Assembly: GCF_910592395.1 (NCBI RefSeq)
Contig: NC_088308.1
Location: forward strand, 24,817,501-24,881,500
DNA length: 64,000 nt
From: Lineus longissimus
Taxonomy: Eukaryota; Nemertea; Pilidiophora; Heteronemertea; Lineidae
Direction: 5' to 3'
Part shown: positions 6,780 to 64,000 of the stretch, in pieces
Layout: the number at the start of each line of letters is the position of its first letter
Numbering within the stretch: position 1 is the first letter of the stretch
Notes under the pieces: generated by a model
Told to the model about the DNA's origin: nothing
What the model saw: only the letters and a program-made list of their open reading frames with translations
The model's database searches: none
Translations under genes and position numbers: made by a program

Positions 6780-7462
6780 CTGGAAGAAATTGGTATGAAA
6801 AGTATGACTATAAGTACATGTCTTGAATAATTTCATATCATGTATTACTATTAGGCAATAGCCTTTTGGACAAAGACGAAATCAGAGCCAACAAAACAAA
6901 TGCGCACACTCGGAACACGCAAGAAGGCCAAAGCCGACTTAACTTCTTAAGACAATGTCACAAGTCGCTGTTGCCCTTTGACTTGTTCCAGGTGAAACAT
7001 TTGTCTTGAAACGCATGACTCAGACTGGTCAGCACCCAAACAATCTTCTAAAAAAAGGTTGATGCAAACATGGGAAAGCCAAAGCCAAGGTGAAGATTGA
7101 TTCACACATTTCATTCCCAAAAATCCCATGCCCGAGTCGAGTGTCAGTCCCACAAAGAGTAATTTGTTCTTAAACTTATTTAGTTACCACAAAACAGAGA
7201 CACTTGACTGTCCTGTACTGTGCAGGGAGTGGACGTGGATTACTCTTATAGGCCTACTGAACTGGAACTCAGAACTGGATTGAGTGGATAATATAGGCTA
7301 TCACACATCACTGACACTAGTCGTCTAAGAGAGAATCAAAGATCCATGTATGTATTCAATTCAAGACACAAAAAAACATCCGTCATTCATCTCCTTCGTT
7401 TTTCAGTCAAGGCAACCAGTTCAATGTGAAGACTGTATTCACATGCATATTTCTAAACCTAC

Positions 7463-17076: not shown

Positions 17077-17269
17077 TTATGACGGTCTTTGTGCTATAAA
17101 CTGTCCCTTATTCTCAAGGAATTCATCCATGATTTCTTTCACTGGCACATGAAGTTCCTCTGGACTTTCACCGTCACTTTTAATATGCGAATCTTCAGTG
17201 ATGACGGTTTCTTCACAGCCATCGTCATTAATGACGGTTTTCTTATGGACTTGTTTCTTCATTGTAACT
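17077..17269 (-). CDS. Terminal coding exon of the giant gene
   Basis: The acceptor GCTTTCAG is followed by VTMKKQVHKKTVINDDG and a stretch containing EETVITEDS. The exon then reads SPEELHVPVKEIMDEF and ends NKGQFIAQRPS with TAA at 17077. The pattern of a basic strand followed by DDGxEETV recalls the DGT modules in the giant exons and the charged C-terminal tails of ankyrins, but I cannot confirm homology by eye. Confidence 0.8.
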
Positions 17270-19665: not shown

Positions 19666-19716
<51 letters not shown>

Positions 19717-22700: not shown

Positions 22701-25700
22701 TAGCCTGAAACAAGAGAACTCCACATTATTACACAATGAGGGTGCATGGTCTGAACTGAGCCAGTCTTCTAGAATACTTCCCGTGACTACGAATATAAGC
22801 AGGGAAAATTTTCATGTTCAAAGAAGATTTGCAGATATATTTTTTGTTAGTGTGAGGGATGGTGCCATGGCTAATACACAAGGACAAGGGAAAAAAATCT
22901 TTTCAAAAAAATAGTTAGGACAAAACCAGGGTCTCAAGGTTGATAACCTGTGCTTCGGTCGCAGCGAGACCCTGCAAAGGTATGAACCCAACTGGCCAAT
23001 TCAAACCAGTGTGCAGAAGCAGAACTAAACCTGAAATAAACAAACACAGACAATAACCTGCAACAGAAGGAACAAAAAACTAAATTAGTATAGACTTGCA
23101 AACATGCAGTGAGCACATGCGACAGAGGGGAGAGAGCAAGTACTACCTCCTGGTTTTGTGGGTTCATCCACCTTGCTGGACGCGGCTGCTGATAATTCTG
23201 GCCCGCAGTAGCAGTTGTCAGAGTGAGAGGAGTCGGAAGTGGGTGAAGAGGCAGAATCAGGAGACTGAGGGTCAAGTAAAGGCCGAACCTCTCGCATTGA
23301 TGCATCACTACTACTTTCAGAAAGTTCACGTTTTGCAGACTTATGTTCATGATGCTCAAGTTCAGTTACATTAAAAACCTTCCTCTGTCGCGTTTGAGCG
23401 AAATCTATTCGAAAATTACCCTCCCGATCATACTGTGTTTCTTCTGTGCTAGATTCTGTTCGTATATTGCCTTCACGGTCAACAAAAGAACTTTGAAATA
23501 TATTTTCTGTTTGTTGAACCTGTACATGCCTTATCTCGGCTTCTGTGTGGCGTGATACAACAGATTTCGAAACTTTTGTGTCGGTGCGAGTTGTTTCTAC
23601 CTTACATGTGGCTGAAGATTCAACTTCTTCAGTTATTTCACCCATTGACATAAATGACATCGTCATAATGTCTTGACTACTATCTAATGATTTAATATTT
23701 TCATGAGAAAGACCACTACTGTGACTCCAAGCACCCGATTCAGTCGACATTTCCATGACACTTTCTTGTCGTTGAGGTGGAGGCAACTCAAAATGTTCTC
23801 CAAATGTCAGCATGGGATCCTCTTGTCCTCCAAGTGAATCCGTCTCAAACCGCTCCTCAGGATCCTTGGCTTTGCTTCCTAACTCTAATGAATCAGTCAT
23901 GACATCTGGCACTCTCTGCTCAGTTAGGGAGTCAACCGATGAGACCATTCCTTCCTCAATCTTGTGAGTAGCAGGGTCTTCCATTTCTAAAGAATCAGCA
24001 GATTTAATCATGACAAACGCGTCCTTCTTGTCATCTGCCGTAAGAGAATCAACGGACTGCTGCATTAGGTCCTGTTGCAAAGAATCAGCATCAGCCGATT
24101 TTGCCATTTCCAAAGAATCTATAGACTTGATCATTGCAACATCACCGAGCAAAGAATCAGTGTCAATATGATCGCTTGGCAGGCTAGGGACCTTCTGATC
24201 AAACTCTATTGAATCAATTGAAGCTTGCATGATTGAGTCCTGGCCATGAAGAGAATCCGTGTCTATTTCTTGTGAGAAACTGCGATCACTTGCAATCTCG
24301 TCTTGCCCTTGAAGTGAATCTTGGTCCATGTCTATCTCTTTCGGCTGAACTGCCACGACGCTAGCATAATCTCCATCAAGTGAGTCGGCGTCAGCGTCCT
24401 TTTCTCTTTCTGGGGATTCTTTGATGGGCATCTGGATGAGCTCTGCACTGCCACCAGCAGACCTGACTGTCTCCTGTGAGACCATACTGAAGCCACTGGC
24501 AGCACTCCAGGTACAGGAATCCGTCGAGATGAAAGATGATTCCATGACAGTAGTATGGCGAACTGTACCATCTGGCAAGTCTAACTTCTCAAAGCCTTCG
24601 ACATTCATTGCAGCTTGTTGAACAATATTGTCCATTTCATCCTCCTCGTCCACCTCACCTTTGCAACTGGCGGGATCAACGCCCTCAACGAAGTCTTCCC
24701 CCACCGCTGGCAAGTCTTTGCTTGAGTCCGACTTGTCAGATGAAGGTTTCTGATCAAGATCACTCGATGAGCCTTTACCACTACCACTGTCTGTACCAGA
24801 GGGTCCAGGCAGTTCACCACTCTCTAAGAGATCAACGATTCTTTGAGCCTCAGCTTTTACTTCGCCTAATATCAACCCCTGTTCAATCCTTTCGAACTCA
24901 GACAGGGATGAAGTTGAGGACTGAAGGCTCTTACGTTCATATGAGTCATATGAATCTCTCCGCTCGCCATGAGTATCTAACTCCTGCTCTAGCCTCTCAA
25001 ACTCAGCCAGAGAGGATACTGATCCTGCACCGACACTACTCTGCGTTTCTGGTGTAATTTTTTCTGTGGATTCACACTGCATGACTTCTCTCTCAAGACT
25101 TTCAAATTCAATGAGAGAGGATGTGACAGATATGTTATCTTGTTCTTTGTTTTTATCTGGTCGAGTTAGGCGTTCCATGTCATCAAATTCTGACGACTCA
25201 ATCTGAAAGATTTCTTGTTGATGAAGCTCTTGCTCGATTTGTTCAAACTCAGCCAAAGATGATGGCACTGACGATGACACTGATGCATTATCACTTTCTC
25301 CATATTTAGCAAAGAAACGATCTCTTGGCGAGGCAGTGTAACTTGGCGACGATCCTGGTAGATCTGGTAAACTAGAAATGCTAGGTATACTACTTGGTAA
25401 ACTAGGAATGCTACTTCGTAAACTTGGAATGCTTTTTGGCAAACTAGGAATGCTTTGAGCCTTTTCTGAGCTTGGAGAGTCGAGAAGATCCTCCTTTTCG
25501 ACCATTTCGAACCTGTCTTTTTCTGAGCCTTCCGTATCAAGAATTGTTGTTGAGACATCAATCTCTGACAACTCTGATTTATCAATTATTTCAAACTTGT
25601 CACTACTCGATGAAGACTCACTCTGATCCTCTTCCTCTTTGTCTCTAACATCTATCGATATGACAGCTTGTGGGAGTTCTTCTGTGCAGACTGCACCATG

Positions 25701-28700
25701 GACATCAGAGTGAAATGAAGAATTCATGGATGAGACCTCGGCTAAACGGTCCTCTTCCTCTTCATCATAATCAGCTGCAACAACGGTAGTGAAACTGTCA
25801 ACACTGGAAGAGTCCTCCTCAATGTCCTCTGGACTAATAAGATCAGCTGCAATACCACTGATTTCAGCTTTCTCCTGTTCGGTATCTGTGTCATCGTCAG
25901 ATTCATCATCATCAGCCATTTCAGTAGGCAAACCTGTTGGTCGTTTAATATCAGCTTTGGTCACAGTTGTTGTTGTGGTTGTAGTTGTAGAAGTTCTCAT
26001 CTCCTCTAGCCCTTCAGCACCAGTTGCCTCTTCAATGTCTTCATGTGTTGTTTGGAGTTTTGTGTGCTGGACAATTTCAACTTGGGTAGCAGACAGTTTT
26101 CTGAATTCAATTTTCACTGTCTTTGTACCACAGAATGATTCCTCAGGGACTTCTTCAAAGGAATGAGTTCTGTGGACATGTTCATGCATTTTATCAGGAT
26201 CTTCTTCTTCCTGGTGCTCCTCAACCGGTGCTCCCCCTAAAGGTACATCCTCGATCAAGGAATCAACATCTTCAGATGCTTCAGAGCCCGATATGCTAGC
26301 ATCAACAGTCTCAAGCTCAACAAAGTATCCTTGGTCAACCTCAACTTCATCACCTGTCATGGGTTGCTCTGATTGGACCGATTCTACAGCAAGCGTACCT
26401 TCAACGATGGCAGCCTCAGTAGGAATGTCTTCTTTCTCCGCAGGAATGGATAATGGGTCTATTGACTTCACAGACTCTGCCTTAGTTGGCTGTATTAATT
26501 CTTCTTCCTCCTCTTGGCAAATAGATGATGGATCTACAGACTTCACCGCCTCTGCCTTCGTTGGTTGTATTATTTCTTCTTCCTCCTCCTCTTGGCCAAT
26601 AGATGATGGATCTACTGACTTTACAGCCTCTGCCTTAGTTGGCTGTATTAATTCTTCTTCCTCCTCTTGGCAAATAGATGATGGATCTACAGACTTCACT
26701 ACCTCTGCCTTCGTTGGCTGTATTATTTCTTCTTCCGCCTCCTCTTGGCCAATAGAGGATGGATCTACTGACTTGACGGCCTCTGCTTTGGTTGGTTGTA
26801 TTATTTCTTCCTCCTCCTCTTGGCCAATAGAGGATGGATCTACTGACTTGACAGCCTCTGCCTTAGTTGGCTCAATTACTTCTTCCTCCTCTTGGGAAAT
26901 AGATGATGGATCTACTGACTTTACTGCCTCAGCTCTGGTTGGTTCAATTACTTCTTCCTCCTCCTCTTGGCCAATAGACTGTGGATCTACTGATTTAACT
27001 ACATCAGCCTTAGTTGGCTGAATTTCTTCTTCGTCCTCACCAGGAATAGACAATGGATCGACACCATGGACCAGACTGACAGTAGTTGGGACTTGAACGG
27101 CCTCATGAACATGCTGTGCATCATCAAATCGAGTGTAATCTATTGTTGCTCTTGCAGGCAATATAGTAATATCTTCAATTCTGTCAGCAGATGGGTGTGG
27201 CATAAGACTTTCAACTGATTCTGACTCCTCTGGTTCATCATCTGACTTCTCTGTCGACTTTACTGCCTCAGCTCTGGTTGGTTCAATTACTTCTTCCTCT
27301 TCCTCTTGGCCAATAGACTGTGGATCTACTGATTTAACTACATCAGCCTTAGTTGGCTGAATTTCTTCTTCGTCCTCACCAGGAATAGACAATGGATCGA
27401 CACCATGGACCAGACTTACAGTAGTTGGGACTTGAACGGCCTCATGAACATGCTGTGCATCATCAAATCGAGTGTAGTCTATTGTTGCTCTTGCAGGCAG
27501 TAAAGTAATATCTTCGATTCTGTCAGCAGATGGGTGTGGCATAAGGCTTTCAACTGGTTCAGACTCCTCTTGTTCATCTTCTGACTTCTCTGTCCTCAAA
27601 CTTTCAATTAACTCATCTTCGGTGAGCTCACTTGACTGAGATTCCATTTCTGGAATTGACCTTTCTTCAAAGAAACTAGCCCCCTGTTCCATTACCTCGG
27701 AAAGGGCTTGAGAAACAGCAGACCGCTCAATTTCTCTTTCGAACACCTCTGACAGTTTTGTTTCTGTAAGATCAACCGTGACTTGCTTTCTGGTTTCAAC
27801 CATTTCAACCTTCACTTTCTCATGGGTGATTGTGTCTTCAGATTCATTACTGTGTAACTGGGTGATTCTTGAGGTTTCTTCTAGATACATCTTGCTTAAG
27901 TCTGAGTCATCAGTCTGTTTAAGAATGACGTCAGGTTCCGAACTTGATACATGGACATCCTCCGGAGCTGAAACTATCTCTTCGAGTTTGGCATTCATGT
28001 CATCTATAGAGATAGCTGACTCATCTGGCTTAACAAATTCTTCTGTCTGCTCTTCCTCATCAACTAAAGAAGCAGTCTCACTTGATTTGGTACTCCAAGA
28101 AAGATCGAGATTAAGAGTTTCTGCCATCTCATCTAGACTGCGCTCATCCATGACCTCTTCCATTGGCTCATCTTTCATTTGAACCTCTACCTTCTCACCA
28201 AAAGCATCTTCAAACATTTTACCCAAGTCGTCTTTTCCAAAATGTGGCGAGATGTCTCGGTGAATAGCAATAACCTCATCACTCCCAACTGATCCAGCTT
28301 CTTCCCTCACCTGTAGTATTTTGTCATCCCCAGTTACCACTGGAGCCAGTGGGGCCTTCCCATCCTCGGCTTCAGTCGTAACTGGTTCATCCACTAAAAA
28401 AGACTCCTCTTCTTCTTTCTCCTCCTCCGGTTTGTAATAAGATGTGGGATAATCTTCCTCATTTACCTCTTCATGGTAATGTTGAGTGAGTGTAATATCT
28501 GGAATTTCCTCAGAGCCTTGCTTTGCAAAATAATCAGTGTCATCTATGTGCACCTCAGTCGTGGGTTCAGATATCCCATCTTCTTCTTCATCCGGACCCG
28601 GAGGTTTATCTCGATGCACCTCATAGTCTAAAAAAGAATCCACAGGTTCTTCAGTGGGTTGCTCTGCATCAGGTGCATCTTCTGTGATGTTTTCATTATT

Positions 28701-31700
28701 CCGAAACATTTGGTCTTGAGCTTGTTGAATCACAGTATGCACAAATTCGGAAGCTGTCTGCTCCAGTTTCTCATTCCTTGGTTCTGCAGGCTCTGGTTCA
28801 GGTGTAAGAGCACCAAATGGAAAATGTACCCTTGGTTCACTTTCGTCATCGTCATCATTGATTATGCAAGCCTTGTCATCAGGAATGGGGGAAAGTGGGC
28901 GCTCATACTCAGTGTTATCCTGCTGGTCCTTTTCAAATTTGGTATCATCATCAGAACTTCTCAGGTCTCGTAGTTGCGAATCTGTTCTACTTCCACTTGA
29001 ACCCCTCAAGTCAGATTCAGGTCTTGAGGAAAATGCAGAAGATTCTGATGTTGGCCGCTGCTCCTCGAATTCTGGAAGTTCTGAGTCAGGCCTGTCTTCT
29101 TCCACAAGAGAGAATTCGACATCTGGCCTTTCCATTGGTGATTCAACTGGTTCTGCCAACATAACCTGGATTATTTCTGGTTCAGGTGAGTCTTCTGAGT
29201 CCTCAAAGTCCTCAAGTTCATCCTTCTCATCCTCAGCTAGTTGAGCGCTCTGTGGCCCTTGTGATGGGGTACCTCCATATGCCCCGAGCTCTTCCTCTTT
29301 TGTCTTAGCTGCCTCAGCAGTCTCCTGAGTTTCCTGGGACTCCTGTATGCCTTGGCGATCCATAACCTCTTGCAATTCAGTTTCACTTTCGGAAGAGTCA
29401 TCTATTGTAGGATCCTTTATTTTCTTTCTGCGTTTCGACAGATCAGGAGTGAGTGATTCGGGAACAGCAGAATACTTTGAATCATCAAGAGTGGCCTCAC
29501 CAAACAGTGTGCCATAGTCAATTTCTGGTATTACCGTAGCTGTACTCTGAGCCCCTTCTTGTAAAACAGATTCTTGTACAGATGGAACGGGCATTCTTTT
29601 TACATCATCAGGACTAGGTAATGGTGGAGTCTCATCCCTTTCTTCCTCTGCAACAGGTTGTGCAGCAGCTTGTGTTGTGACCTCTTCCACTGGCATTTCC
29701 ATATCATATAGAGTAGCGTCTGAAGCAGCCATCCTATCTACACTTGGCACTGATATATCATCACCCAGACTTCCACTCATCACAGCTGGTTCACTCGGTT
29801 GTGTTACTTCTTCACTTTCTGCTGTAACCTGAGGCTCATCAGCAGGTGCACTGATAATAATGGGTGCTGCTTGAGTTGTTGGCTCCTCCTCTGTTGATAT
29901 GGGTTCTTCTTGAACAGCTGCTTCAGATTCAACTCCACTAATGTCTTGGTCATCAGTAGCAAGAGTTTCTGATGGACCAGGGAATGTAGCTTGAAGTGGA
30001 GACTCAGGTGAATAGTCAATCTCTGTCGGCCCATTAGTGTGGAGATAAGGTTCGGGTTGTGTTTCATCAACAGCTTCAGATTCAATTTCAGGGGGTGGTG
30101 TAGGTAGAACACCTGCTGATGCTTGGGCTACATCAGGCAATGGTTCACTTGAAGGGAAATCATAAGGAGACACTGGGCCCCTGTCTGATTGTTCACTGCT
30201 GCTTACTGGGGACACTTCAAATGTTGGCGATTCTGCTTCTTCAACTGTGCCTGGCGTAAATATTGGTGGGACGACACTTGAAGACTGTGGTGTTGACTCT
30301 GCAGCTGTCTGTAATCTGTGCATCTCTTCCTCGTATTGTTCATACCCTTCCATGTCCTCTTCAGTAACCAGCTCAAATGATTCATCTGCAGTAGTAGCCA
30401 TTTCCTTTTTGGCTCTGACCTCATGCTCCTGCTCAGAGATCTCCTCCAACGGACGTTCAAATCTGCTAAAAGGACTCTTTGGCGATTGACTCCCAGTGCT
30501 TGATCCGGTTGCAGGAGTAGATGGAACTGACTCAGTTGTGTCTGATTGATCAGTTTCACCTTCTTCTATGCTTTCTGTGATTACTTCCTTGGATAAGAGA
30601 GGAGCCTTGTGTTTCTGTGGTGACTCAGCTTCAAATACTTCATCCTCTGGGCTAGAGAGAATGGCTTTTGTTTGTGACGGGATAGCAACAGTTTTATCAA
30701 CACTATCTGGAGAAACATCATATGAACTGACAACATGAGAAACGTGACCAAAGTCTAGATCGTATGTAGCTGCTAACAATGTTGGCTCACGGTTATCTTC
30801 AGAAGAGGAAGATGTTGCCATATCTTCACTTGATACAGAACTTGGCGGCATGTCCTTGCCTTTGGAATCATCCTGAAATTTCACTCTCTGAATTTCAGGT
30901 CTTTGTGGTCTGTCTTTACTGCTATCAGTGCTGCCTCCTTCCTCACATATTGTCTCAAGTTGTTCATCACGGATCTGTTCATCTGAAATACGCCTCTGTA
31001 TCTCTACATCCTGCTCTTCTGGGAAGTCTCTTGACACCATGAGAACTTCTTGTTTCTTTTCTACAGAAATGTCTTCCTCAGCAGTAGGGGATGCAGGCTT
31101 CTCACCAGGCTCAGTCGGTTCAGAAACAGTAACCTCTGGCTCCACTGAAGTTGACAAATCTTTCCTTAATTCCTCTTGCATCTCTCGTATGTTGTCATAG
31201 CTGGTTTCCAATTCTTCTGAATCAAATGATCCTGACTTGGTATGATCGTCTTCAGAATACTCTTTCAACATTGGAGGCCTAGACTGCCGTTCCTGTTCCA
31301 TGTGAGACTCCTGTATCATTTTGAGAGCAGGGTTTGCAGAAACATCAGACAGATCTGCTTCGGGAGAATTGTCAAGTGAATTCTCGGGTGAGCTCTCCCC
31401 GGTTGTAACTGGAACAATGACAGTAGTATGCTGATCACGTGTAGGTGTAAGGTCAAGATCAAGGTCAAGTGTTTTCTCTGGAACATCTTCTTCTTCCTCA
31501 TCAGGAAGTTCACCAATGACTGCCTTGGTTAACTTATCCCGGGCTTCCTCTGTATCAGAAGAAACATATTCTGTAGTACCAATGCGGAATGCATTAGCAT
31601 GCATAGTGCGGTCTGTAGGTGACGGTCCTGGTTCATGAGATCTGCTTTCAAGGATACTCTCAATAACTGTTGCTTCATAAGATTTCATGATGTCTTCATG

Positions 31701-52700: not shown

Positions 52701-55700
52701 TCCTCCAACCCACCTTAGGAAAGTGACTCCTACTACTAATAACAGCCTTCGGCAAGCAGTGTTCAGTGCTAGTGGACGTGAGGCGGAAGCTTAGTATACA
52801 CGAAGTGTTTATAAACGAAGCGTAAGCATCTTAACAGTAAACGAAATATCAGAGCTTCTCCTTGTTGGCTTGAAATGGTCAACACATAAAGTTGATGGTA
52901 GTAAACTTGTAATGCAGGATGTAGTAGAAATTTCACTAAGGAGTGTTAATATATTAAAACTAGAGTAAAAGCAGTCATGTTTAAAATGGGAAAATTTGCA
53001 GAAAAGTCTTTAGTTAAATGCTGAAGCAATGAAACCAGGAACGCAAAGCTAGCTGGACCTCCTGTACTGATTCAATTGAGCCATTCCAAAAAAGGTGGAC
53101 ATGCTGTACCTAGCCATGCTGCATTAGCTCTAATGCTCTCTGGCTTACTGGTATACCTGAGTCACTAGAGTCCTCTGCGCCCTCTACTGATAGTCTTGTG
53201 CACACTCGACGGGTTTTCGTTTTGGTCTTTACTCGTTTAACCACACGGGTGCCATCAGGGAGAACATCTTCATACTCTTCTATGTCTGCTTCTTCATGTG
53301 GCTCATCATGGACCAGATCGGTCTGAAAATGGAATCCCCCAGGAATGTCGCTCTGGTGGAATGCTTCTTTCTCCTCCCACCGACTACGAGTGACTGTCCC
53401 GCGCGTTTCCTTTGTCTTGACTACATGCTTCCTCACCACCACGCCATCTTGGATAGTCTCGGCAATTTCTATATAATCTTCACCAGTGCTGTCGTCATGT
53501 TGCACTGTTCCTTCCAAAACATCTCGGAAAAGTTGCACCCTACTCGGACCATGCAAATCACTTTCAACCCTCTCAGCCCCTCCAAAGCTAAAGTGTTCAG
53601 CTGGTTCATCTCTCGTGGTTTGACCAGATTCGCTCATCCAAAGATGCGAAGTTCTAAATGATCTCTCCTCACTTCTTATTGTACGGGTGCTCTCCAAATG
53701 TGTTGTAACTGATTGTTCCTCAAAGCTCCGACTACTGCGCATTTCACCATGTGCTAACTCTCTTCTTTCTCCACTCAAATGAGATAAATCTATCCTCCGA
53801 TGTTCCAGACTCCTGACAACAGATTCTGTCCTCTCCGCATAAGGATTACCACGATCAGAGACCCTGTCATCAAGTCCCTCCCAACTGATTGGATAATCCA
53901 TACCATATGGCCGACTAGCCGCCATTTTACTGACAGAAACTAGATAGATATTCCGCCCAGACATGTCCAGCACGTCATGAGCTAAGGGAGGCACTAATCC
54001 TTCAGCTTCTGCAGTATGTGTGATTTCTCTCTCCAATGACCGCCTCAATGAGAATTCTCCCTCCTTCGACACATTGCGCCTTGTCATCCTAATAACCTCA
54101 CCTGATGCACTAAGCCTTGGCAAGTGTTGCTGTGTTATATAGGATTCACCCCGCTCTGACATTGGCAAGACATATGGACTAAAATCTTCACTACTCTCAA
54201 CCTCTGTTATTTGTGCAGCATGCAACCTCTGCCTCCCTTCGTGAACAATGACAGACTCTGTGTGTTCTGTATCTGGTGTTACCATTGTCGACCCAGCTAC
54301 AGAGGATTCCGTAGCAGTATCACTTGGGGACGTCTCTATCACAACTGTGGATAATGATGCTTGTAGCTCACTTGCACTAGGAAGTGATTTCTTCCCATAA
54401 TCTGGTGGGATGACGATGGATGGGGAATCTTCAGATGTTGACACAAACTGAACTGTCTTGACTTTGACCTTGACTGGAGTATCCACAACTTTCCCTTGAC
54501 TAGCTCCATCCAATGGCTTTGCTTGGCTAGTGACCTCAACAGACTTCCCAAAGTCATCCACAGCTACCAAATCCTCAAGGTACAGGCTACTTCTTTCCGC
54601 CTTTTTACTTTCAGTATCCACATCATCTTGAGTTGATGTTATTTCTAAACCAGGCATTGACTCACCAGGTTTTATAACCATATGAACAGGGACTCCTTCA
54701 TCAAGATACAGACTAGACCTTGCCAACCTCTCAGCCTCTAACTGAGCTGTGTATTTAGGATCCTCTAATTGAGTAGGCACTTGACTCGCCACTTGAGCAA
54801 CAGGTTCTTCTGGCTTCTCACCAACACTGGTAGCAGTATCCCTTGCCACACCTTCTACAGAGATTTCTACATCTCCATCCAAATACATACTCGTTCTAGC
54901 TAACCTAGTTGTTTCTAATTCTGCAAGATATCTGGGATCTTTGGTATCTAATCCTGATTCCTTAGCCTGTTTATCAACATCTCTCTCTGTTTCATCACTG
55001 ACCTCAGTTACATCAACATCTCCATCTAAGTACATACTTGCCCTTGCTAACCTAGTTGTTTCTAATTCTGCAAGATAACTTGAATCTTGTGTTTCTAGCC
55101 CAGTTGCTTTGATTGGTTTAATATTGTCCGGTTCAACCACTCCATCAGTTCTATCAGTACTAGGTTCAGCATTCTGTGGGACATCACCACCAAAGTACAT
55201 ACTAGTCCTTGGTAACCCAGTTGTTTCTAATTGTGCGACATATTTAGGATCTTGGATATCCAATCCTGCTTCCTGGACCAGGTTTACTGCATCAGAATCA
55301 GCAACTTGGGTTTTATCACTGGGTTCAGTTGCATCTGAATCCAAATACATACTCGTTCCAGTTAATCTCATAGTTTCCATTTGTGCAAGATATTCTGGAT
55401 CATGGGTTTCTAGCCCCATAGTCATGAGTGGTTTGATAGTTTCAGGCTCAACAATAGTTATTGCTTTATCACTGGGCTCAGTGTCATCAGAGACAGACTT
55501 AATCATCATGGAAGGTTCTTCGTCATCTTCTTCTTCAGTTAAAGATGACTTTGAAATCGTATCGGGAGTTTCTAAAGGCTCTGAGAGGTACGAGTTGGTC
55601 TGTTCAGGGCTTCCCTGTGTAGCTCTTTCCTCCTCTTCTGTGGTCTCTGATGAATCTGGCTTAGTTAAGATATCAATTCTAGCTTTGTCATCTTCACTTG

Positions 55701-58700
55701 ATGTAGAGTCTGGTGTTTTGATTTCTGGGATCTGCCCTGGTTCAACCTCTTGCAAGAACTGACATTCAAACGGTTCATCTTCCCCAGGAGGCACTGAACC
55801 ATCATAGATCAAGCTGGCTTTTGCATAGCTAGACGAAGTTGTCACAGTCACCTTTTTATAAACCTTAGACCCATCGGGCAAAGTATCCCCAAACCTATCA
55901 ACATCCACCTTTACATCTGGTTCAGTCATTTCTGTTTTAACTATAATTGTGGACCGGTCATCTTTCGGCTCCAATTCATATTCCTCGTCTAATCGTCTTA
56001 AATCGACAGAAGTTCTAACTTCAGTGACCTCCTCATATCTAGCATCAGGCTGTTCAATTGTATCCTTAGATACTGGCTCCACCTTTACTGCAGTAGTAAC
56101 TGCACCGAGCACGACTGTAACATCAGCATCCACCTTCTTAGTAACATCACTGTCACGCACTCTGTCTGTTTGTTCGATGGACTCATCAGTGACTGTGGTT
56201 TCTACTTCCTCTACAGTTTCTGCAACCAATACAGGAGCAGTTTGATCTGTGACTGGTACATCCAGCGTCGTTATTACAATATCAGTTTGTTCGGTGGACT
56301 CATCGGTGACGATCGTCTCTACTTCCTGAACAGTTTCAGCAACCAATACCGGAGCAGTTTGATCTTTGACTGGTACATCCACTGTTGTTATTACAACATC
56401 AGTTTGTTCGGTGGACTCATCAGTGACTGTGCTTTCTACTTCCTCTACAGTTTCAGCAACCAATACTGGAGCAGTTTGATCTTTGACTGGTACATCCACT
56501 GTTGTTATTACAACATCAGTTTGTTCGGTGGACTCATCAGTGACTACAGTTTCTACTTCCTCTACAGTTTCAGCAACCAATACTGGAGCAGTTTGATCTT
56601 TGACTGGTACATCCACTGTTGTTATTACAACATCAGTTTGTTCGGTGGACTCATCAGTGACTACAGTTTCTACTTCCTCTACAGTTTCTGCAACCAATAC
56701 CGGAGCAGTTTGATCTTTGACTGGTACATCCACTGTTGTTATTACAACATCAGTTTGTTCGGTGGACTCATCAGTGACTGTGCTTTCTACTTCCTCTACA
56801 GTTTCTGCAACCAATACCGGAGCAGTTTGATCTTTGACTGGTACATCCACTGTTGTTATTACAACATCAGTTTGTTCGGTGGACTCATCAGTGACTGTGG
56901 TTTCTACTTCCTCTACAGTTTCTGCAACCAATACTGGAGCAGTTTGATCTTTGACTGGTACATCCACTGTTGTTATTACAACATCAGTTTGTTCGGTGGA
57001 CTCATCAGTGACTGTGCTTTCTACTTCCTCTACAGTTTCAGCAACCAATACTGGAGCAGTTTGATCTTTGACTGGTACATCCACTGTTGTTATTACAACA
57101 TCAGTTTGTTCGGTGGACTCATCAGTGACTACAGTTTCTACTTCCTCTACAGTTTCTGCAACCAATACTGGAGCAGTTTGATCTTTGACTGGTACATCCA
57201 CTGTTGTTATTACAACATCAGTTTGTTCGGTGGACTCATCAGTGACTGTGGTTTCTACTTCCTCTACAGTTTCTGCAACCAATACCGGAGCAGTTTGATC
57301 TTTGACTGGTACATCCACTGTTGTTATTACAACATCAGTTTGTTCGGTGGACTCATCAGTGACTGTGGTTTCTACTTCCTCTACAGTTTCTGCAACCAAT
57401 ACTGGATCAGTTTGATCTTTGACTGGTACATCCACTGTTGTTATTACAACATCAGTTTGTTCAGTGGACTCATCAGTGACTACAGTTTCTACTTCCTCTA
57501 CAGTTTCTGCAACCAATACTGGAGCAGTTTGATCTTTGACTGGTACATCCACTGTTGTTATTACAATATCAGTTTGTTCGGTGGACTCATCAGTGACTAC
57601 AGTTTCTACTTCCTCTACAGTTTCAGCAACCAATACCGGAGCAGTTTGATCTTTGACTGGTACATCCACTGTTGTTATTACAACATCAGTTTGTTCGGTG
57701 GACTCATCAGTGACTACAGTTTCTACTTCCTCTACAGTTTCAGCAACCAGCACAGGAGCAGTTTTATCTGTGACTGGTACATCCACTGTTGTTATTACAA
57801 CATCAGTTTGTTCGGTGGACTCATCAGTGACTACAGTTTCTACTTCCTCTACAGTTTCAGCAACCAGCACAGGAGCAGTTTTATCTGTGACTGGTACATC
57901 CACTGTTGTTATTACAACATCAGTTTGTTCGGTGGACTCATCAGTGACTGTGGGTTCTACTTCCTGAACAGTTTCAGCAACCAATACAGGAGCAGTTTTA
58001 TCTGTGACTGGTACATCCACTGTTGTTATTACAACATCGGTTTGTTCGGTGGACTCATCAGTGACTGTGGGTTCTACTTCCTGAACAGTTTCAGCAACCA
58101 ATACAGGAGCAGTTTTATCAGTGACTGGAACATCTACTGTTGTTATTACAATATCAGTTTGTTCGCTGGACTCATCAGTGACTACAGTTTCTACTTCCTC
58201 TACAGTTTCAGCAACCAGCACAGGAGCAGTTTTATCAGTGACTGGTACATCCACTGTTGGTATTACAATATCAGGTTGTTCAGTGGACTCATTAGTAAAT
58301 GAGGTTTCTATTTCCTCAACAGTTTCAGAAAGCAAGACAGGAGCAGTTTGATCTGCGACTAGTACATCTGCTGTCATTAATATTGGTTGAGGTTTGCCGG
58401 ACTCAAGTTCATCAGCTTCAGCAGAACTTTTCTCTTCGTCACTTTCAGAGGAGGTTGGCGATTCACAGATGGCCTCAGATGGTAATTTGCCATCAGTAAC
58501 TTCCAAATCAACTTGTACTCTATCAACATCTGGACTGGATCGCTGAATTACCGCAACTTTTTTGACAATGACTTGATATTCTGAACGTTCAATTGACATA
58601 GACCGTTCAATTGGCAGAGGCTCAGGTTCACTCTCACTGGAAGAGGAACTAACCTCAGACTTGGGCTTAACAACTTGTTGTTGCTCTACATGTTCCTTTC

Positions 58701-61700
58701 TCTCTGTATCAGTTATTTCTGGTTCCTTTGGTACAGATTCGTTGGCAGTTATCTCCACAACTTGTGGTACAGGTGTGTCAGGTTCTCCAGGTTTAGTAGC
58801 TACCTCACTTGCCTCAATTTTAACATCATGTCTCAGTTCAGTCATTTGTTCATTGGTAACTTCAACTACCAGAGCTGCATCCTTTTTATCAGTCTCGGGT
58901 GGCTCACCATCACTTTCACTGGAAGATGAGCTTATCTTAGACAATGGTTTCAAAACATCAACAATGTATTTGGGTTCCTTTCCCTCAGCATCTGATGGTT
59001 CCAATTCACTTTCCTCAACTTCTGTCTGTTCCGACTCAGGTTCAGTTACCTCAGCAATAGTTTCAGGAAGCACCAGCTCTGAGGTTTCTGTCTCTGAGGT
59101 TTCAGGCTCAGTACTCTCTGTTTCTGATGCAACATCTGAATAAGTTCCTGAAGCAGGTCCACTACTAAGTTTGACTTCACTGTCTTCCTCTTTGTCAGTA
59201 TCAGTCGGTCCAGATTCAGCACTTTCTGGTTTTGTTGTAATCTCAGAAATGGGTTCAGATGTTCCCCTACTGTTTGGGGGAGTATCTGCTCCTTCCTCTT
59301 TCTCAGTATCAGATGATTCTGGTTCTGTTGTAGTCCTGCTACTTGGTACAGGTGTCCATTCTCTTTCTGTATCAGTGTCTCGTTCTGTGCCTGAAGACTC
59401 TGGCTCATGACTCTCAGGTTCTGTAGTGGACTCCCTACTCGTTGTTATCACAGAGCTGCAAACAGATGTTGCCCTACTGCTGGTCACTTCTTCCACAACA
59501 GCAGTCTCCTCAGATGTTTCTGCTTCCGATTCAGATGCTTGTTTTGGCGGTGACTCAGAAGTTCTTTCTACTGGCTCGGATACCTGTATCTCCATCACCA
59601 TCTTATCAACATCATCAGTATCAGATGTTTCTGGTTCTGAAATAATCATTACTTCTGTTTCCAAGGCAATGGTTTCTTCCTTTGGTTCTTCTGTAACGTG
59701 TAGTGTCGGTCTTTCAGGTTCTTCAGGTTTAGCAGTTACATCAACTTTAACCCCTTGTTCTATTTCAGCAATTTGTTGAGTAGTCCCAATAATTAAGTTT
59801 GAATCCTTTTCAACAGCTTGCAGTGGTTCCTGCTCAAAATCTGTTTCGCTCGAAGAAGGTTCTGAACTACTTTCAACCTTCACAGGCTCTTCAATAGTTG
59901 GTTCGATAGGTTTGACAGGTTCTTCCTTAACTTGGCCCAATTCAGATACAGCATGAATATCATGTTTGACATCAGTAACTCTTTCAGTAGATGTTTCAAC
60001 AATTAAAGTGGTATCCTTTGGTTCCTCTACAATATGCACCTCTGGTCTCTCCGGCTCTTCAAGTTCCTCAGTCATAGCACAGACTTCAGGTTGACCAACT
60101 GCAACTTGTTCATGGACTGCGGTGCCTTGAATGCTTAAATCTGTTGGCCTAAGCTCACCATAAAGATTCCTAGTAGGTTCAGGAATAATTTCAACCTTCT
60201 GACCATAAGATGCAGGTGTTTCTGGCCTTGTTCCCTCAGATGGTTCCTCTACAACTAGTGTTTCTGGTCTTTGAAGCTCTTTGGGTTCCTCAGCATCAAC
60301 ATTAGATGGTTCTGGTTCTGGTCTTGTTTCCTCAGTGGATATCTCTGCAACTTGTGCCACTGGTTTTTGAGGCTCCTGCGGTTCCTCTGTATCAACATCA
60401 GAAGGTTCTGATTCTAGTCTTGTTTCCTCAGTCGGTATCTCTGCAACTTGTGCTACTAGTTTTTGAGGGTCCTGGGGTTCCTCTGGAGCAACATAAGATG
60501 GTTCTGGTTCTGGTCTTGTTTCCTCAGTTGGTATCTCTGCAACTAGTGCTACTGGTTTTTGAGGCTCCTGGGATTCCTCTGTATCAACATGAGATGGTTC
60601 TGGTTCTTGTCTTGTTTCTTCAGTTGGTATCTCTGCAACTAGTGCTACTGGTTTTTGAGGCTCCTGGGATTCCTCTGTAGCAACATGAGATGGTTCTGGT
60701 TCTTGTCTTGTTTCCTCAGTCGGCATCTCTGTAACTTGTGCTACTGTTCTTTGAGGTTCCTGGGGTTCCGCAGTATCAAGAATAGATGGTTCTGGTTCTT
60801 GTCTTGTTCTCTCAGTTGATATCTCTGCAACTTGTGCTACTGGTTTTTGGGGCTCCTGGGATTCCTCTGTATCAACATTAGATGGTTCTTGTCTTGTTTC
60901 CTCAGTTGGTATCTCTGCAACTAGTGCTACTGGTTTTTGAGGCTCCTGGAATTCATCAGTATCAACATGAGATGATTCTGGTTCTGGTCTTGTTTCCTCA
61001 GTCGGCATCTCTGTAACTTGTGCTACTGTTCTTTGAGGCTCCTGCGGTTCCGCAGTATCAAGAATAGATGGTTCTGGTTCTTGTCTTGTTTCCTCAGTTG
61101 ATATCTCTGCAACTTGTGCTACTGGTTTTTGAGGCTCCTGGGATTCCTCTGTAGCAACATCAGATGGTTCTGGTTCTGGTCTTGTTTCCTCAGTTGGTAT
61201 CTCTGCAACTAGTGCTACTGGTTTTTGAGGCTCCTGGGATTCCTCTGTATCAACATCAGATGGTTCTGGTCTTGTTTCCTCAGTCGGCATCTCTGTAACT
61301 TGTGCTACTGGTTTTTGAGGCTCCTGGGATTCCTCAGTATCAAGAATAGATGGTTCTGGTTCTTGTCTTGTTTCCTCAGTTGGTATCTCTGTAACTTGTG
61401 CTACTGGTTTTTGAGGCTCCTGGGATTCCTCAGTATCAAGAATAGATGGTTCTGGTTCTTGTCTTGTTTCCTCAGTTGGTATCTCTGTAACTTGTGCTAC
61501 TGGTTTTTGAGGCTCCTGGGATTCCTCTGTATCAACATAAGATGGTTCTGGTTCTTGTCTTGTTTCCTCAGTTGGTATCTCTGCAACTTGTGCTACTGGT
61601 TTTTGAGGCTCCAGGGATTCATCAGTATCAACATGAGATGGTTCTGGTTCTGGTCGTGTTTCCTCAGTCGGCATCTCTGTAACTTGTGCTACTGGTTTTT

Positions 61701-64000
61701 GAGGCTCCTGGGGTTCCTCAGTATCAAGAAGAGATGGGTCTGGTTCTTGCCTTGTTTCCTCAGATGGCATGTCTGCAACCTGTGCTACCAGTCTTTGAGG
61801 CTCCTGTGGTACCTCAGTATCAACTTGAGACAGTTCAGGTTCTAGTCTTGTTTCCTCAGATGGTTCCTCCGCAACTAGTGCCTCTGCTTTTAGAGGCTCC
61901 TCAGAATCCTTGGTATCAACATGATATGGCTGTTCTTGTAGCACATTGGTGACAATAACAGAACCTTCAGAGACATCCCCTTCAAACTCCAAACTTGCAG
62001 AAACCCTAGTGGTGGTAATCGTTGTTATATTTTGCTGAAGAACAGATGTACCATCTGGTTGAACATAACTTGTTTCTTCTGTTGTCTGTTCAACAACTGG
62101 TTTGTCTTCTTCAGTACAGACAGTCACTCTTGAGGGTTCACTGTCAATATCAGGCATTTCAGATTCCTTGATAGTTTTTTCAACTGATGTAATCTTTGAA
62201 ACCTCGGTCTTGATTTCCTGGTTACCCAAACCCATATCTGGTAGTACTTTCACTTTTGCTTCCTCATCAACAGTCATTGACAAGTCTGATGTAATTGTTT
62301 CTGTGCCTGCCTCAACTGGAATAGCAGTTTCTGGTTCTGCTGGTAGTTGTTCACCAGGCAAGGCTTTTAATTGCTTTAGAGGAGTGCGGGTAGCTATTGC
62401 CTGCTCAACTTCAGGGACTTGTTCAGATGCAGTTCCCACACCTGAGGTCTCATCCTCCTTATCAAAGGCTAAAGCCCTGGGTTTTTGATCAGATTCACCT
62501 GATGATGATTCCAGACTACTATCTATCTTTTCAGGTTCGGAAACAGGTACTGTTTCAGGCTCAGAGGCAACTGTTTCTTCAACTGGTTCCTCTGCCAATT
62601 GTGCTACTGGTCTTAGAAATTCTTCGGGTTCGTTTAGCTTGGAAGACAGATCAGGCATTTCACCAGCAATTTGTTCTGTTGTTGTTTCAAGACTTCTAAG
62701 ATTTGCATCTTTTAAATCAACCTGTGCTGGTTTATCTTCATCATCAGTTTCACTGGATGAAGGTTCAGAACTGCTGCTTTCAACTTTCTCCAGTTCATCT
62801 GGTTTTGCAATGGCGTCAGTGGTATCAACTTGTAAATCATCCCTACTTTCATTGATTGATTCTGTAACTGGCTGAGGCTCACTTCCATCAGAAAGAGTTT
62901 CTTCAATTTCTTCCACAGGACTGGTATCCAACCTTTCTTGCACAGAAACATGCAGCAGTTCAGCCACAGGATCAACAGATTCTTCTACAGTTGCCTCATC
63001 AACTTGTGGGGCTGGTTTTTCAATTTCCTCTGGTTCCTCAGGTTTAGTAATCGCTGTAGAAGTTTCAATCCCAACCTCTTGACTTACTTCAGCAATTTGT
63101 TGTGTCATTGTTTCAACAACTAAACTTCTGTCCTTGGCATCAACTTGTGATGGTTCTTTCTCATCCTCAGATTCACCTGCAGATGACGTTTCAGACTCCC
63201 TCTCAATTTCTCTTGGCACTGCTTCCTCACTGCTTTCATCAGGTCGCTTTGGCTCTTCTGAGTCCTTCTCTACATCAACTTCTCGTTTGATATCCGCGAG
63301 TGGATCAGCAGTAGCTTCTACTGTCAGGGATACATCCTTTAAGTCAATGGCTTTTATTTCCCCAGGCTTTGAAGTCTCAGTTTCTGGTTGATCAGGTTCT
63401 CTTGATTCAGAGATATCATTCTCCACTGGCACCTCAGGTTTGGTCAGTTCTACATTGGTTTCTTTACCAACATCTTGTTCAATGCCAGTGATTTGTTCAG
63501 TATTTGTTTTAACAACTAAAGTTGTATCCTTTGAATCAACTTGTGACGGAGATTTCTCACCATCTGACTCACTTAAAGATGATTCGGGACTTTCACCTTG
63601 GTCTAGTTTTTCAGCAGTTGTGTCAACTGGTTGCTCAGGTTCCGTTTTTAAAAGGCCTTCAGTTTCAGTAGGAATTTCCTGTTCGATTTCAGCGATTTGT
63701 TCAGTCGTACCAGGAACACCCTTTGTTACATCCTTAACATCAATCTGCGAAAGCTTTTTCTCACCATCAGATTCACTTGAAGATGATTCGGGGCTTTCAA
63801 CCATGTCTTCCTTTTCATCAGTTGGTTCAACTGGTTGCTCAGGCTCAGTTTTTACAAGGCCTACTTCAGTTTCAGTGAAAATTTCAGGTTTGCTTTCAGC
63901 GACTTCTTCAGCTGTACCAGGAACAACCTTTGTTACATCCTTAATATCAACCTGCGAAAGCTTTTTCTCACCACCAGATTCACTTGAAGATGATTCGGGA
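17077..64000 (-). CDS. Giant multi-exon acidic repeat protein, candidate giant-ankyrin tail (partial)
   Basis: Exons from 5' to 3': >64000-53157, (48629-48513), (46843-46799), 43674-35134, 34728-34285, (34084-34073), 33521-33468, 32488-23147, (20660-20625), 18415-18367, 17269-17077; those in brackets are candidates. Every internal junction before the last two exons is phase 1, and the sum is about 9,800 residues in the window. The protein is acidic, E/S/T/P/V-rich and predicted disordered, with large tandem arrays and short repeated modules. It ends in a charged segment (MKKQVHKKTVINDDG ... TVITEDSHIKSDG ... EIMDEFLENK). Known giant ankyrins carry disordered tails from giant exons that link membrane/spectrin to microtubules in axons, and this architecture fits. 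No ankyrin, ZU5 or death domain is in the window, so the assignment is inference. A MAP1/futsch-like protein is less likely because no MAP1 light-chain C-terminus is present. Confidence 0.6.
18367..18415 (-). CDS. Penultimate exon of the giant gene (49 nt)
   Basis: A good acceptor (ATTTTAACAG) and consensus donor (CCAG|GTGAGT) bound the exon. It enters in phase 1 and leaves in phase 2, encoding EGDQEGAAGGEVHTT plus a split arginine codon. It joins the terminal exon in frame. Confidence 0.75.
18729..19775 (+). mobile_element. Helitron-like/pearl-type non-autonomous element (3 x ~303 bp, GAC run, hairpin end)
   Basis: Three tandem units share GACCTCTGTGACCTTGA, GCCAAACGG/GCCAAACCA and GAAACGTGCC. 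The phrase GACCTCTGTGACC occurs at ~18744, ~19052 and ~19358, which sets the unit length. A (GAC)n microsatellite follows (about 19631-19727), then an imperfect-spacer hairpin with perfect 11-bp arms (AGCTCACCTCT/AGAGGTGAGCT) and CTAAAAA. Central tandem repeats, a microsatellite and a 3' hairpin recall Helitron-like non-autonomous elements of marine invertebrates. The boundaries are uncertain. It lies in the giant gene's intron. Confidence 0.6.
19631..19727. repeat. (GAC)n microsatellite
   Basis: The run is nearly pure GAC/CGA with a few GGAC interruptions. Long frames read from it on both strands (poly-R) are artefacts of the trinucleotide repeat. Confidence 0.95.
20625..20660 (-). CDS. Candidate 36-nt phase-1 exon
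   Basis: The acceptor TTCATTGCAG and a weak donor (AAAG|GTTCTT) enclose 36 nt that are open and symmetric in phase 1, reading EKATVEAGLVEK. The composition suits the gene, but the donor is poor. Confidence 0.35.
20661..23146 (-). other. Intron downstream of giant exon E
   Basis: AT-rich sequence containing the AGGTCA palindrome. A 24-nt open stretch near 22961-22984 (after TTTGCAG) is phase-compatible but has a weak donor. No exon is confidently supported. Confidence 0.45.
22110..22132. repeat. Perfect 23-bp palindrome of nuclear-receptor half-sites
   Basis: TGAAGGTCAT-TTC-ATGACCTTCA has 10-bp perfect arms around a 3-bp centre, i.e. AGGTCA half-sites inverted with a 5-bp spacer. It lies in the intron between the giant exon at 23147-32488 and the 49-nt exon. 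Confidence 0.6.
23147..32488 (-). CDS. Giant exon E (9,342 nt)
   Basis: The acceptor is TTCTCTAG|TT at 32488 and the donor GGAG|GTAGTA at 23147. Both are phase 1, giving 3,114 codons. The first two thirds are S/T/P/E-rich and disordered, with LDLDLD stretches. Then come a 339-bp duplication and a ~24-residue IQPTKAEAVKSVDPSS array (27.6-26.4 kb), four SSLxEFExLE motifs (25.3-24.9 kb), a DLPDGTVRHTTV module and about a dozen DSL motifs (24.4-23.8 kb). The end has VDREGNIRTES and YDREGNFRIDF, which resemble repeated charged beta-strand segments. If the donor is not used, the frame runs 20 more codons to a stop at 23085. An initiating methionine is not needed, because the frame continues upstream of the acceptor. 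Confidence 0.87.
23820..24395 (-). repeat. Ladder of about a dozen (D/A)DSL motifs
   Basis: Motifs such as ADADSLDGDY, DQDSLQGQDE, DTDSLHGQDS, IKSIDSLEMAK, IKSADSLEMED and VSSVDSLTEQ recur every 15-25 residues. The spacing is irregular, so this is a motif ladder and not a strict tandem repeat. The DSL context could serve as phosphorylation or scaffold-binding sites. Confidence 0.75.
24880..25270 (-). repeat. Four SSLxEFExLEQE motifs
   Basis: Copies read SSLAEFEQIEQEL, SSLIEFESLEREV, SSLAEFERLEQEL and SSLSEFERIEQGL at about 25250, 25110, 25000 and 24890. Each could form a short amphipathic helix. They are spaced by unrelated polar sequence. Confidence 0.85.
26440..27600 (-). repeat. Coding array: 339-bp duplication plus ~24-residue IQPTKAE repeat
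   Basis: Blocks 26921-27259 and 27260-27598 are near-identical copies 339 bp (113 codons) apart, both containing SLMPHPSADRIEDI and SLVHGVDPLSIPGEDEEE. Downstream, eight or nine further units of IQPTKAEAVKSVDPSSIGQE plus E-runs follow. Near-identity of the 339-bp copies implies a recent duplication. Confidence 0.9.
32489..33467 (-). other. Intron upstream of giant exon E
   Basis: No repeat, RNA gene or further exon in phase could be supported on either strand. Confidence 0.6.
33468..33521 (-). CDS. 54-nt phase-1 exon of the giant gene
   Basis: The acceptor AAGCAG and donor GAAG|GTAGAG enclose 54 nt that join in phase 1 to both neighbours. It encodes EGQALERDEVAHVEDLHE. It is symmetric, so it could be a cassette exon. 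Confidence 0.75.
34073..34084 (-). CDS. Candidate 12-nt microexon
   Basis: CTGCTAAATTTC is bounded by a good acceptor (CATCATCACAG) and a consensus donor (C|GTGAGT). It is a multiple of three in phase 1 and would add four residues (A-A-K-F) between the 444-nt and 54-nt exons. Such a short match can be fortuitous, so transcript evidence is needed. Confidence 0.4.
34285..34728 (-). CDS. 444-nt phase-1 exon of the giant gene
   Basis: An acceptor (TTCATGAAAG) and donor (AAAG|GTACCT) bound a symmetric phase-1 exon of 148 codons. It encodes GPQDDRNDSTKFYQNDAPEL, later FRPQEQDEYGQSDFG, RRRTATSPEPMRLDLSSM and RTRHHSSPDFSIQHEKLL, ending ELRAAHLDK. This is less repetitive than the giant exons and has a possible short helix at its end. 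The upstream and downstream giant exons join it in phase. Confidence 0.85.
35134..43674 (-). CDS. Giant exon B (8,541 nt)
   Basis: The acceptor is TATTAG|AA at 43674 and the donor ACAG|GTAGAT at 35134. Both are phase 1, giving 2,847 codons. The 5' part is mixed acidic sequence (EEDGVEEQPVEIASPEK, HIAMTAPSASLECHDRSR). Then come ~18-residue PEEPIEEPQ-type repeats (42.2-41.6 kb), about 80 copies of a 19-residue E-rich repeat (41.6-37.0 kb), and four spaced copies of a YSSR..ETVTFST module (37.0-35.7 kb). The end is an S/P/D-rich stretch (SPSDKPQKITSPISSKSLSL). The composition suggests a long, highly charged, extended tail. The upstream acceptor has a weak pyrimidine tract, so its position rests mainly on phase. 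Confidence 0.85.
35770..36975 (-). repeat. Four dispersed YSSR-ETVTFST-EVGEH modules
   Basis: Copies lie near 36970-36845, 36570-36480, 36214-36083 and 35893-35770. The pattern is EYSSRVIETVTFSTSY, four or five residues, then EVGEHTxxDVEPFIL and ExERGE. The order of hydrophobic and aromatic residues is conserved while the acidic spacers are not. These are the best candidates for folded or ligand-binding elements in this exon. Confidence 0.85.
37050..41600 (-). repeat. Coding tandem array, 19-residue (57-bp) unit, ~80 copies with 285-bp higher order
   Basis: The unit is approximately EIVEEPESEPVVEETPEEK. A higher-order unit of five (285 bp) is visible: equivalent positions at 38716, 39001 and 39286 are 285 bp apart, and the next at 39514 is 228 bp on (four units). 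Variant units are ordered within the higher-order block. The whole array stays in one frame. Confidence 0.92.
41600..42200 (-). repeat. Coding repeats, ~18-residue PEEPIEEPQ unit
   Basis: About nine or ten imperfect copies follow the pattern (K)PEEPIEEPQTIEELxSE, with a spacing of 54 bp where clear. The array adjoins the 19-residue array but has a different unit, so it is listed separately. Confidence 0.75.
46131..46160. repeat. (TGGA)n microsatellite
   Basis: Short, slightly interrupted TGGA repeat in the intron between giant exons A and B. Confidence 0.85.
46631..46636 (-). terminator. Candidate minus-strand polyadenylation signal
   Basis: AATAAA on the minus strand lies about 165 bases downstream of the candidate exon at 46799-46843. 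It would give a short alternative transcript end inside the giant gene's intron. Confidence 0.3.
46799..46843 (-). CDS. Candidate 45-nt phase-1 exon of the giant gene, or terminal exon of another transcript
   Basis: An acceptor (TTTCACTTTTAG) and donor (GAAG|GTACTA) bound 45 nt that read DQGQQSTELAEEEDEG in phase 1, consistent with the gene. In another frame the same DNA reads RPRTAVYGARGGRRRRYY and then TAG, followed within ~170 nt by AATAAA on the minus strand (46631-46636). It could therefore be an alternative 3'-terminal exon with an arginine/glycine-rich tail. The sequence alone cannot decide. Confidence 0.45.
48513..48629 (-). CDS. Small phase-1 exon of the giant gene (117 nt)
   Basis: It is bounded by TTTTCAG and AAAG|GTATAC, starts and ends in phase 1, and is open only in that frame in the context of its neighbours. 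It encodes SFEDESPGTPVITITEDH followed by SLPCQEDDDHLKYFGIEQTK. The acidic composition fits the flanking giant exons, and the exon could be skipped without frameshift. No homologue was recognised. Confidence 0.65.
49307..49420. promoter_or_regulatory. Cluster of AGGTCA-type half-sites
   Basis: Within ~115 bp there are TCAAGGTCA (49307), TTTGACCTTCA (49333), CTGACCTTCA (49362) and ACCTTGACCTGCATGC followed by AAGGTCAA (49398-49420). These are sites of the NR5A/ERR or RAR/RXR class. It could be an intronic enhancer or a remnant of a repeat that carries such motifs. Confidence 0.3.
51208..51222. repeat. Poly-G run (15 G)
   Basis: An uninterrupted run of 15 G on the plus strand in an intron, likely length-variable and error-prone in assembly. 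Confidence 0.9.
53157..64000 (-). CDS. Giant exon A (>=10.84 kb), open to the window edge
   Basis: The frame is open from the right edge (no stop between 63805 and 64000) to a phase-1 donor, CAG|GTATAC, at 53157. Regions in 5'-3' order: repeated modules built on SSSESDGEK...SQVD.KD (64.0-62.5 kb); a DGT module (62.0 kb); a 32-residue tandem array (61.9-60.2 kb); an S/T/E/P-rich region (60-58.4 kb); a 39-residue tandem array (58.4-56.2 kb); a second DGT module (55.85 kb); five or six SMYLDGD modules (55.4-54.6 kb); and a more mixed, R-rich end with WMSESGQTTRDEP and a third DGT module. If the donor is not used, the frame continues 15 codons to TAG at 53110, an alternative C-terminus. The exon start is off the window. 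Confidence 0.85.
54571..55440 (-). repeat. Dispersed SMYLDGD modules in giant exon A
   Basis: Five or six spaced copies of a ~30-residue module follow the pattern GLETxDPxYLAxLETTRLAR then (T/A)SMYLDGD. The last copies are shortened (SSLYLDEG, SSLYLEDL). The spacers differ in sequence, so the module rather than the spacing is conserved, which suggests a short binding motif or helix. Confidence 0.8.
56170..58370 (-). repeat. Coding tandem array, 39-residue (117-bp) unit, ~19 copies
   Basis: The unit is approximately VVITTVDVPVKDQTAPVLVA then ETVEEVETVVTDESTEQTD. Anchors at 56361, 56478 and 56595 give an exact 117-bp period. Terminal copies are the most diverged and central copies nearly identical at DNA level. 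The T/V alternation and lack of bulky residues differ from the E-rich arrays elsewhere in the gene and could favour extended beta conformation. Confidence 0.92.
60240..61900 (-). repeat. Coding tandem array, 32-residue (96-bp) unit, ~17 copies
   Basis: The unit reads approximately EPQKPVAQVTEIPTEETRQE then PEPSILDTEESQ. Adjacent copies are exactly 96 bp apart where measured (61341 and 61437). Some copies lack two residues (EPS for EPEPS), so indels are whole codons and the frame is kept. Confidence 0.9.

Follow-up and report, generated by a model that had tools for sequence, protein, structure and literature searches.

Three giant exons in one gene of the nemertean Lineus longissimus, a probable giant-ankyrin tail

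The 64,000-nucleotide stretch of Lineus longissimus DNA analysed here as a whole (hereafter the window) appears to hold the 3' part of one animal gene, transcribed from right to left, whose eight exons join in one frame down to a stop at 17077; this reading is well supported by the sequence. A preliminary description of the locus had proposed a single minus-strand gene with three giant exons, and that proposal is borne out by the splice phases, by the nulls computed for the small exons, by the coding scores and by selection on five of the six repeat arrays. Judging from composition, exon size, repeats and layout, the gene is probably a bilaterian giant ankyrin, of which the window encodes the tail.

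Gene model, splice sites and neighbourhood

The open-frame listing contains three giant frames on the minus strand: 53110..63999 (3,629 codons, with no stop before the right edge), 35111..43741 (2,876 codons, the frame of exon B) and 23085..32519 (3,144 codons, the frame of exon C). By comparison, the longest stop-free frame across 40 order-3 Markov sequences of 64 kb each reached 249 codons. The protein predicted from the three frames is acidic and contains few cysteine and aromatic residues. Splice sites were scored with simple consensus matrices, and coding potential with a codon model trained on exon C. The resulting model comprises the following exons, given with their site scores:

63999(open)-53157, minus: giant exon A, 10,843 bp or more, cut by the right edge of the window and ending in phase 1; donor CAG/GTATAC, 5.0
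48629-48513, minus: small exon e2, 117 bp, phase 1-1; acceptor 12.4, donor 4.9
46843-46799, minus: candidate microexon, 45 bp, phase 1-1; acceptor 10.8, donor 4.6
43674-35134, minus: giant exon B, 8,541 bp, phase 1-1; acceptor at 43674, -0.7 (weak), donor 6.9
34728-34285, minus: small exon e4, 444 bp, phase 1-1; acceptor 6.6, donor 5.6
32488-23147, minus: giant exon C, 9,342 bp, phase 1-1; acceptor 7.2, donor 4.3
18415-18367, minus: small exon e6, 49 bp, phase 1 to 2; acceptor 11.8, donor 12.2
17269-17077, minus: last exon e7, 193 bp, entered in phase 2 as e6 requires and carrying the TAA stop; acceptor 8.6

Joined by splice modelling, these eight exons give one frame of 9,857 residues (1,091 kDa, pI 4.05) whose sole stop lies at its end. 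The preliminary description had put the coding capacity within the window at no less than about 9,800 residues and the giant exons at 10.8 kb or more, 8.5 kb and 9.3 kb, and the modelled protein, free of internal stops, and the modelled exon lengths agree with both estimates.

The codon model returned positive coding log-odds in every block of exon A (36/36) and of exon B (28/28). When the phases were imposed, the best exons of the three gaps, namely e6, e2 and e4, each scored above all 200 Markov nulls (35.1 against a null maximum of 21.4, 31.5 against 26.6 and 69.5 against 26.6, respectively), these nulls being built from the introns and intergenic DNA of this same window and thus not independent of the locus. 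A scan without phase constraint also ranked e6 at the top of its gap of about 6 kb, with the phase change from 1 to 2 that C and e7 require. The same kind of scan in the gap between A and B placed e2 first (31.4), e2 with another donor second (31.0) and the microexon third (30.6); e2 and the microexon are both phase 1-1, as the joining of A to B needs. The rival e2 donor of the second row, at 48499, thus has a nearly equal total score, and it gives the wrong end phase. Mediocre scores (4.3-5.0) were obtained for the donors of A, e2, the microexon and C. At the weak acceptor of B, the coding signal shifts from -18.5 bits before the site to +63.3 bits after it.

The region between A and B is also where a division into two genes would fall, the first ending with A at the TAG at 53110 and the second consisting of B, e4, C, e6 and e7. 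In favour of such a division are a stop codon about 45 bases past the proposed donor of A, the weak sites on either side of the gap (5.0 for the A donor, -0.7 for the B acceptor) and the methionine codon found a few codons into B. We nevertheless regard it as improbable, since the two best independent exons of this gap in the unconstrained scan, e2 and the microexon, are in the phases needed to link A with B, and neither contains an in-frame methionine codon. Within the single-gene model, a second junction from the donor at 53148 (5.7) to the acceptor at 43417 (10.5), in phase 0, also keeps the frame and may be an alternative splice.

Every junction from A through C is in phase 1. Each of e2, the microexon, B, e4 and C is thus a symmetric cassette whose skipping would leave the reading frame intact.

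On its 3' side the giant gene is bounded by an IFT140 gene, which also lies on the minus strand (774-6807). Four of the five pieces tested there match IFT140 Pfam models, and the fifth, at 1366-1584, gave no Pfam match of note:

6559-6807, minus: piece of the first IFT140 beta-propeller, Pfam E 1e-13
6079-6363, minus: piece of the first IFT140 beta-propeller, Pfam E 3.3e-27
4054-4383, minus: piece of the first IFT140 beta-propeller, Pfam E 9.8e-25
777-1085, minus: piece of the IFT140/IFT172 TPR domain, Pfam E 3.8e-43

Between the two genes lie two tandem arrays with a 165/166-bp unit and an inner 51-bp periodicity (10113-10576 and 11112-11563), in which coding bias is absent. The intron between C and e6 contains a 301-bp tandem repeat at 18722-19517 and a GAC microsatellite of about 29 copies at 19633-19722. 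A plus-strand frame of 196 codons in the intron between e6 and e7 (17376-17966) has no Pfam match and is probably due to chance.

Repeat arrays, modules and selection

All three giant exons carry tandem arrays, and exons A and B contain in addition short modules in several diverged copies:

60220..61929, minus: 96-bp (32-aa) array of exon A, 17.9 copies, dN/dS 0.94
56168..58368, minus: 117-bp (39-aa) array of exon A, 18.8 copies, dN/dS 0.31
54661..55428, minus: 36-aa module of exon A, five diverged copies, core DPxYLAELETTRLARTSMYLDGDV
41719..42162, minus: 54-bp (18-aa) array of exon B, 8.2 copies, dN/dS 0.30
37044..41590, minus: 57-bp (19-aa) array of exon B, 79.9 copies, dN/dS 0.32
35759..36979, minus: 46-aa module of exon B, four diverged copies outside the arrays, YSSRVVETVTFSTSYxEEVGEHTFEDVEPFILxxEVERGE
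26445..27594, minus: repeats of exon C, 75/153-bp (25/51 aa), dN/dS 0.32 for the 75-bp unit, and 339-bp (113 aa), dN/dS 0.12

The main arrays make up 34% of the model, leaving out a 207-bp pair at the right edge. The ratios come from correlated comparisons in the minus frame, between copies one to three periods apart. Five of the six arrays are under selection at the protein level (dN/dS 0.12-0.32), the 96-bp array being the exception. The latter (60220-61929, minus strand), unlike the other arrays of the gene, has no third-position bias, as if it were free to drift. Low ratios are also found in the antisense frames of some arrays (0.45-0.5, and 0.23 opposite the 339-bp repeat of exon C); the strand was therefore assigned from the length of the frames, the coding scores and the splice sites. 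The plus strand has five frames of 267-766 codons, which overlap arrays with a period divisible by three and were taken as antisense shadows.

The preliminary description had spoken of several unrelated arrays. This fits the comparison of A, B and C with one another, which revealed no significant similarity; the best match, between A and B at E 0.054, was the only one in favour of the exons being duplicates of each other, an origin that we rejected. Profiles built from the five copies of the 36-aa module and from the four copies of the 46-aa module found no further copy in the model. We also searched for relatives of these regions by pattern. The pattern for the 46-aa module matched 78 stretches in viral contigs and that for the end of exon A matched nine, while the pattern for e7 matched 41 stretches in bacterial and archaeal genomes; none of these matches was confirmed. 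A short recurring element resembling LPDGTxVxKxV was noticed on the minus strand at about 53268, 53460, 55887 and 24581, near the ends of A and C.

A charge-hydropathy rule classes 362 of the 391 windows of 100 residues as disordered, and the remainder fall mostly in the 39-aa array and around residues 3025-3425 of A. AlphaFold2 modelled the 46-aa module with a mean pLDDT of 56.7, which is too low to support a fold search.

Evidence bearing on the identity of the protein

Ankyrins such as ANK1/2/3, Ank2 and UNC-44 are recognised by 24 ankyrin repeats, a ZU5-ZU5-UPA cassette and a death domain. Pfam searches of the window, covering the exons and the three minus frames of all three gaps, gave no ankyrin-repeat, ZU5, UPA or death-domain match (cut-offs of E 0.1 for B and C, E 10 for A, e2, e4 and e7, and E 1 for the minus frames of the gaps). 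If the gene is an ankyrin, the exons for the ankyrin repeats and for ZU5-ZU5-UPA would lie beyond 64000. The death domain precedes the long exon in protostomes and echinoderms, and would then lie off the window as well. No Pfam family names the protein: the only match above the cut-off in the exons and gap frames was PF25505 (ARM_CPL3, E 3.9e-7, 51 of 122 positions), which falls inside the 39-aa array and was taken as a repeat coincidence. Among the matches below the cut-off, Circo_capsid (E 0.061) comes from a gap frame in which the GAC microsatellite is read as poly-arginine, and Septin (0.007), LLGL (0.013) and CPCFC (0.088) come from plus-strand frames opposite arrays. Searches of PDB sequences gave no match for A and C at E 1, nor for a LIR-like piece and the C-terminal tail at E 10. 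The end of A together with e2 retrieved three weak and unrelated matches (E 0.5, 1.9 and 2.2), none of them an ankyrin.

The case for an ankyrin is instead built on size, composition and arrangement. According to a comparative survey, giant ankyrins are present in every bilaterian group examined (Jegla 2016, PMC5135030), and their long exons measure 8,103 +/- 4,850 bp, with arrays of 36-228-bp units in a subset of them (PMC5135030). The three exons described here are each at least 8.5 kb long, compared with the more than 3 kb expected of the long exon or exons that follow UPA in a giant ankyrin; in this gene UPA would be encoded past 64000. The survey gives a composition of about 25% Ser+Glu and more than 55% S, E, T, D, K and P (PMC5135030). 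All three exons show this composition, with Ser+Glu at 25.8% in A, 38.5% in B and 28.4% in C and the six residues together at 58.2%, 66.0% and 56.0%; the match is not specific to ankyrins. Since the long exons share no sequence across phyla, as far as the survey describes them (PMC5135030), missing similarity says little either way.

The unspecific composition leaves room for a giant intracellular scaffold of an unrecognised family other than ankyrin, whose tail would still be an acidic modular spacer. Candidates would be an AHNAK-like protein, a lineage-specific protein or one of the intermediate-filament type carrying a long acidic tail. We consider such a scaffold unlikely. The lack of any named Pfam domain in the searches and the position of the diagnostic N-terminus outside the window speak for it, whereas in the genomes covered by the survey, giant acidic frames rich in S, E, T and P have repeatedly turned out to be ankyrins: ankyrin long exons rank 1st, 1st, 2nd and 23rd among the longest open frames of four genomes, with the second long exon of the fly at 84th (PMC5135030).

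The make-up of exon B (31.5% E, 10.7% P, 10.1% V and 6.0% K) also recalls the elastic PEVK segment of a titin-like muscle protein. This identity is scarcely credible, as A and C are rich in S and T and not PEVK-like, and as Pfam detected no Ig or Fn3 domain in the exons or in the three minus frames of all three gaps, the protein ending without them. Futsch is a giant, acidic, repeat-rich neuronal protein, and the composition observed here would fit a microtubule-associated giant of the MAP1/futsch kind, in which the acidic repeats would form a brush around microtubules and the folded ends would lie elsewhere or have diverged. MAP1 proteins end in a conserved light chain, whereas e7 and the gap frames match no Pfam family, a result to be read with the reservation that Pfam may hold no light-chain model; we judge a protein of this kind very improbable.

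Short linear motifs were also counted. SxIP microtubule-end motifs are not enriched (four against 3.7 expected, with 155 of 300 shuffles as good). Atg8-binding LIR-like motifs following a core-plus-C-helix pattern, which has been described for AnkB and AnkG (PMC8727931), occur four times in exon C against 1.76 expected, with 48 of 500 shuffles as good; this weak and non-significant enrichment provides a lead. Three of these four motifs resemble one another, FELVTEEDM, FEIIDKSEL and FEMVEKEDL (minus strand, 30342-30377, 25560-25595 and 25485-25511).

Possible role and comparison with known giant ankyrins

At the start of the axon giant ankyrins have an organising role, and they link the membrane and spectrin to microtubules. 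If the present gene is one of them, exons past 64000 would encode the ankyrin repeats and ZU5-ZU5-UPA, plus the death domain if the order is of the protostome/echinoderm type, and at the neuronal cortex this core would hold spectrin and proteins of the membrane. The acidic, mostly disordered tail, about 1.1 MDa in mass, would extend inward as a spacer. By analogy with Drosophila Ank2-XL, which organises microtubules, and with the C-terminus of UNC-44, which binds UNC-119 and CRMP, the modules outside the arrays (36 aa in A, 46 aa in B) may dock cytoskeletal partners. Skipping of B or C, as symmetric phase-1 cassettes, could tune both the length of the tail and its set of partners.

We tentatively suggest that an ankyrin gene with three giant exons unrelated in sequence may be seen here for the first time. 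At least B and C would be symmetric phase-1 cassettes that can be included or skipped in frame together with the intervening small exons, so that a neuron could choose by splicing how long the tail is (up to about 1.1 MDa) and which docking modules it carries. The frame and the phases of B and C, on which this suggestion builds, are read directly from the DNA. We found no report of three long exons in one ankyrin gene in the text of the survey (PMC5135030, supplementary tables aside) or in a wider literature search. As the long exons evolve too fast for comparison across phyla, according to the same source (PMC5135030), exon number, phase and layout are the main clues to their origin. If the locus is confirmed as part of an ankyrin gene, its three giant cassettes, unrelated to one another and set apart by small exons that share their phase, would suggest that long exons can be gained repeatedly as modules, a source to be added to the splitting or duplication of one ancestral exon. 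Its tail lengths would also form a natural series in which the spacer idea could be tested.

Among known systems, Drosophila Ank2 offers a close parallel. It has an L isoform of 450 kDa and an XL isoform of 1,200 kDa, through which synaptic adhesion molecules as well as microtubules are controlled (PMC6703079). Its giant exons, too, are non-homologous; there are two of them in the gene, which follow the death domain, and the XL exon carries a long array, of 93 repeats of 76 aa (PMC5135030). In contrast, the nemertean gene has three giant exons with several smaller arrays; the sequences differ, judging by composition and unit length alone, and the core of the nemertean protein lies out of view. 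The giant tail of Caenorhabditis elegans UNC-44 (AO13) shows an alternation of six repeat blocks rich in S, T, E and P with segments of greater hydrophobicity, and the C-terminus of UNC-44 binds UNC-119, which recruits CRMP and anchors microtubules to the cortex (PMC7159925). A similar alternation is seen here between the arrays and the 46-aa and 36-aa modules, whereas UNC-44 has, as far as described, one giant exon, situated in the longest open frame of the worm (PMC5135030). The vertebrate ANK2 and ANK3 giant exons are alike in composition and size class; most of these genes have one such exon, upstream of the death domain (PMC5135030). Tandem long exons within one gene are shared with the two-long-exon giant ankyrins, which account for 8 of the 23 loci surveyed (PMC5135030). 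Where the origin of the second exon is known, it arose by duplication (amphioxus) or by intron insertion (zebrafish AnkB, Lytechinus and Limulus; PMC5135030), whereas the gene described here has three non-homologous long exons with small phase-1 exons between them.
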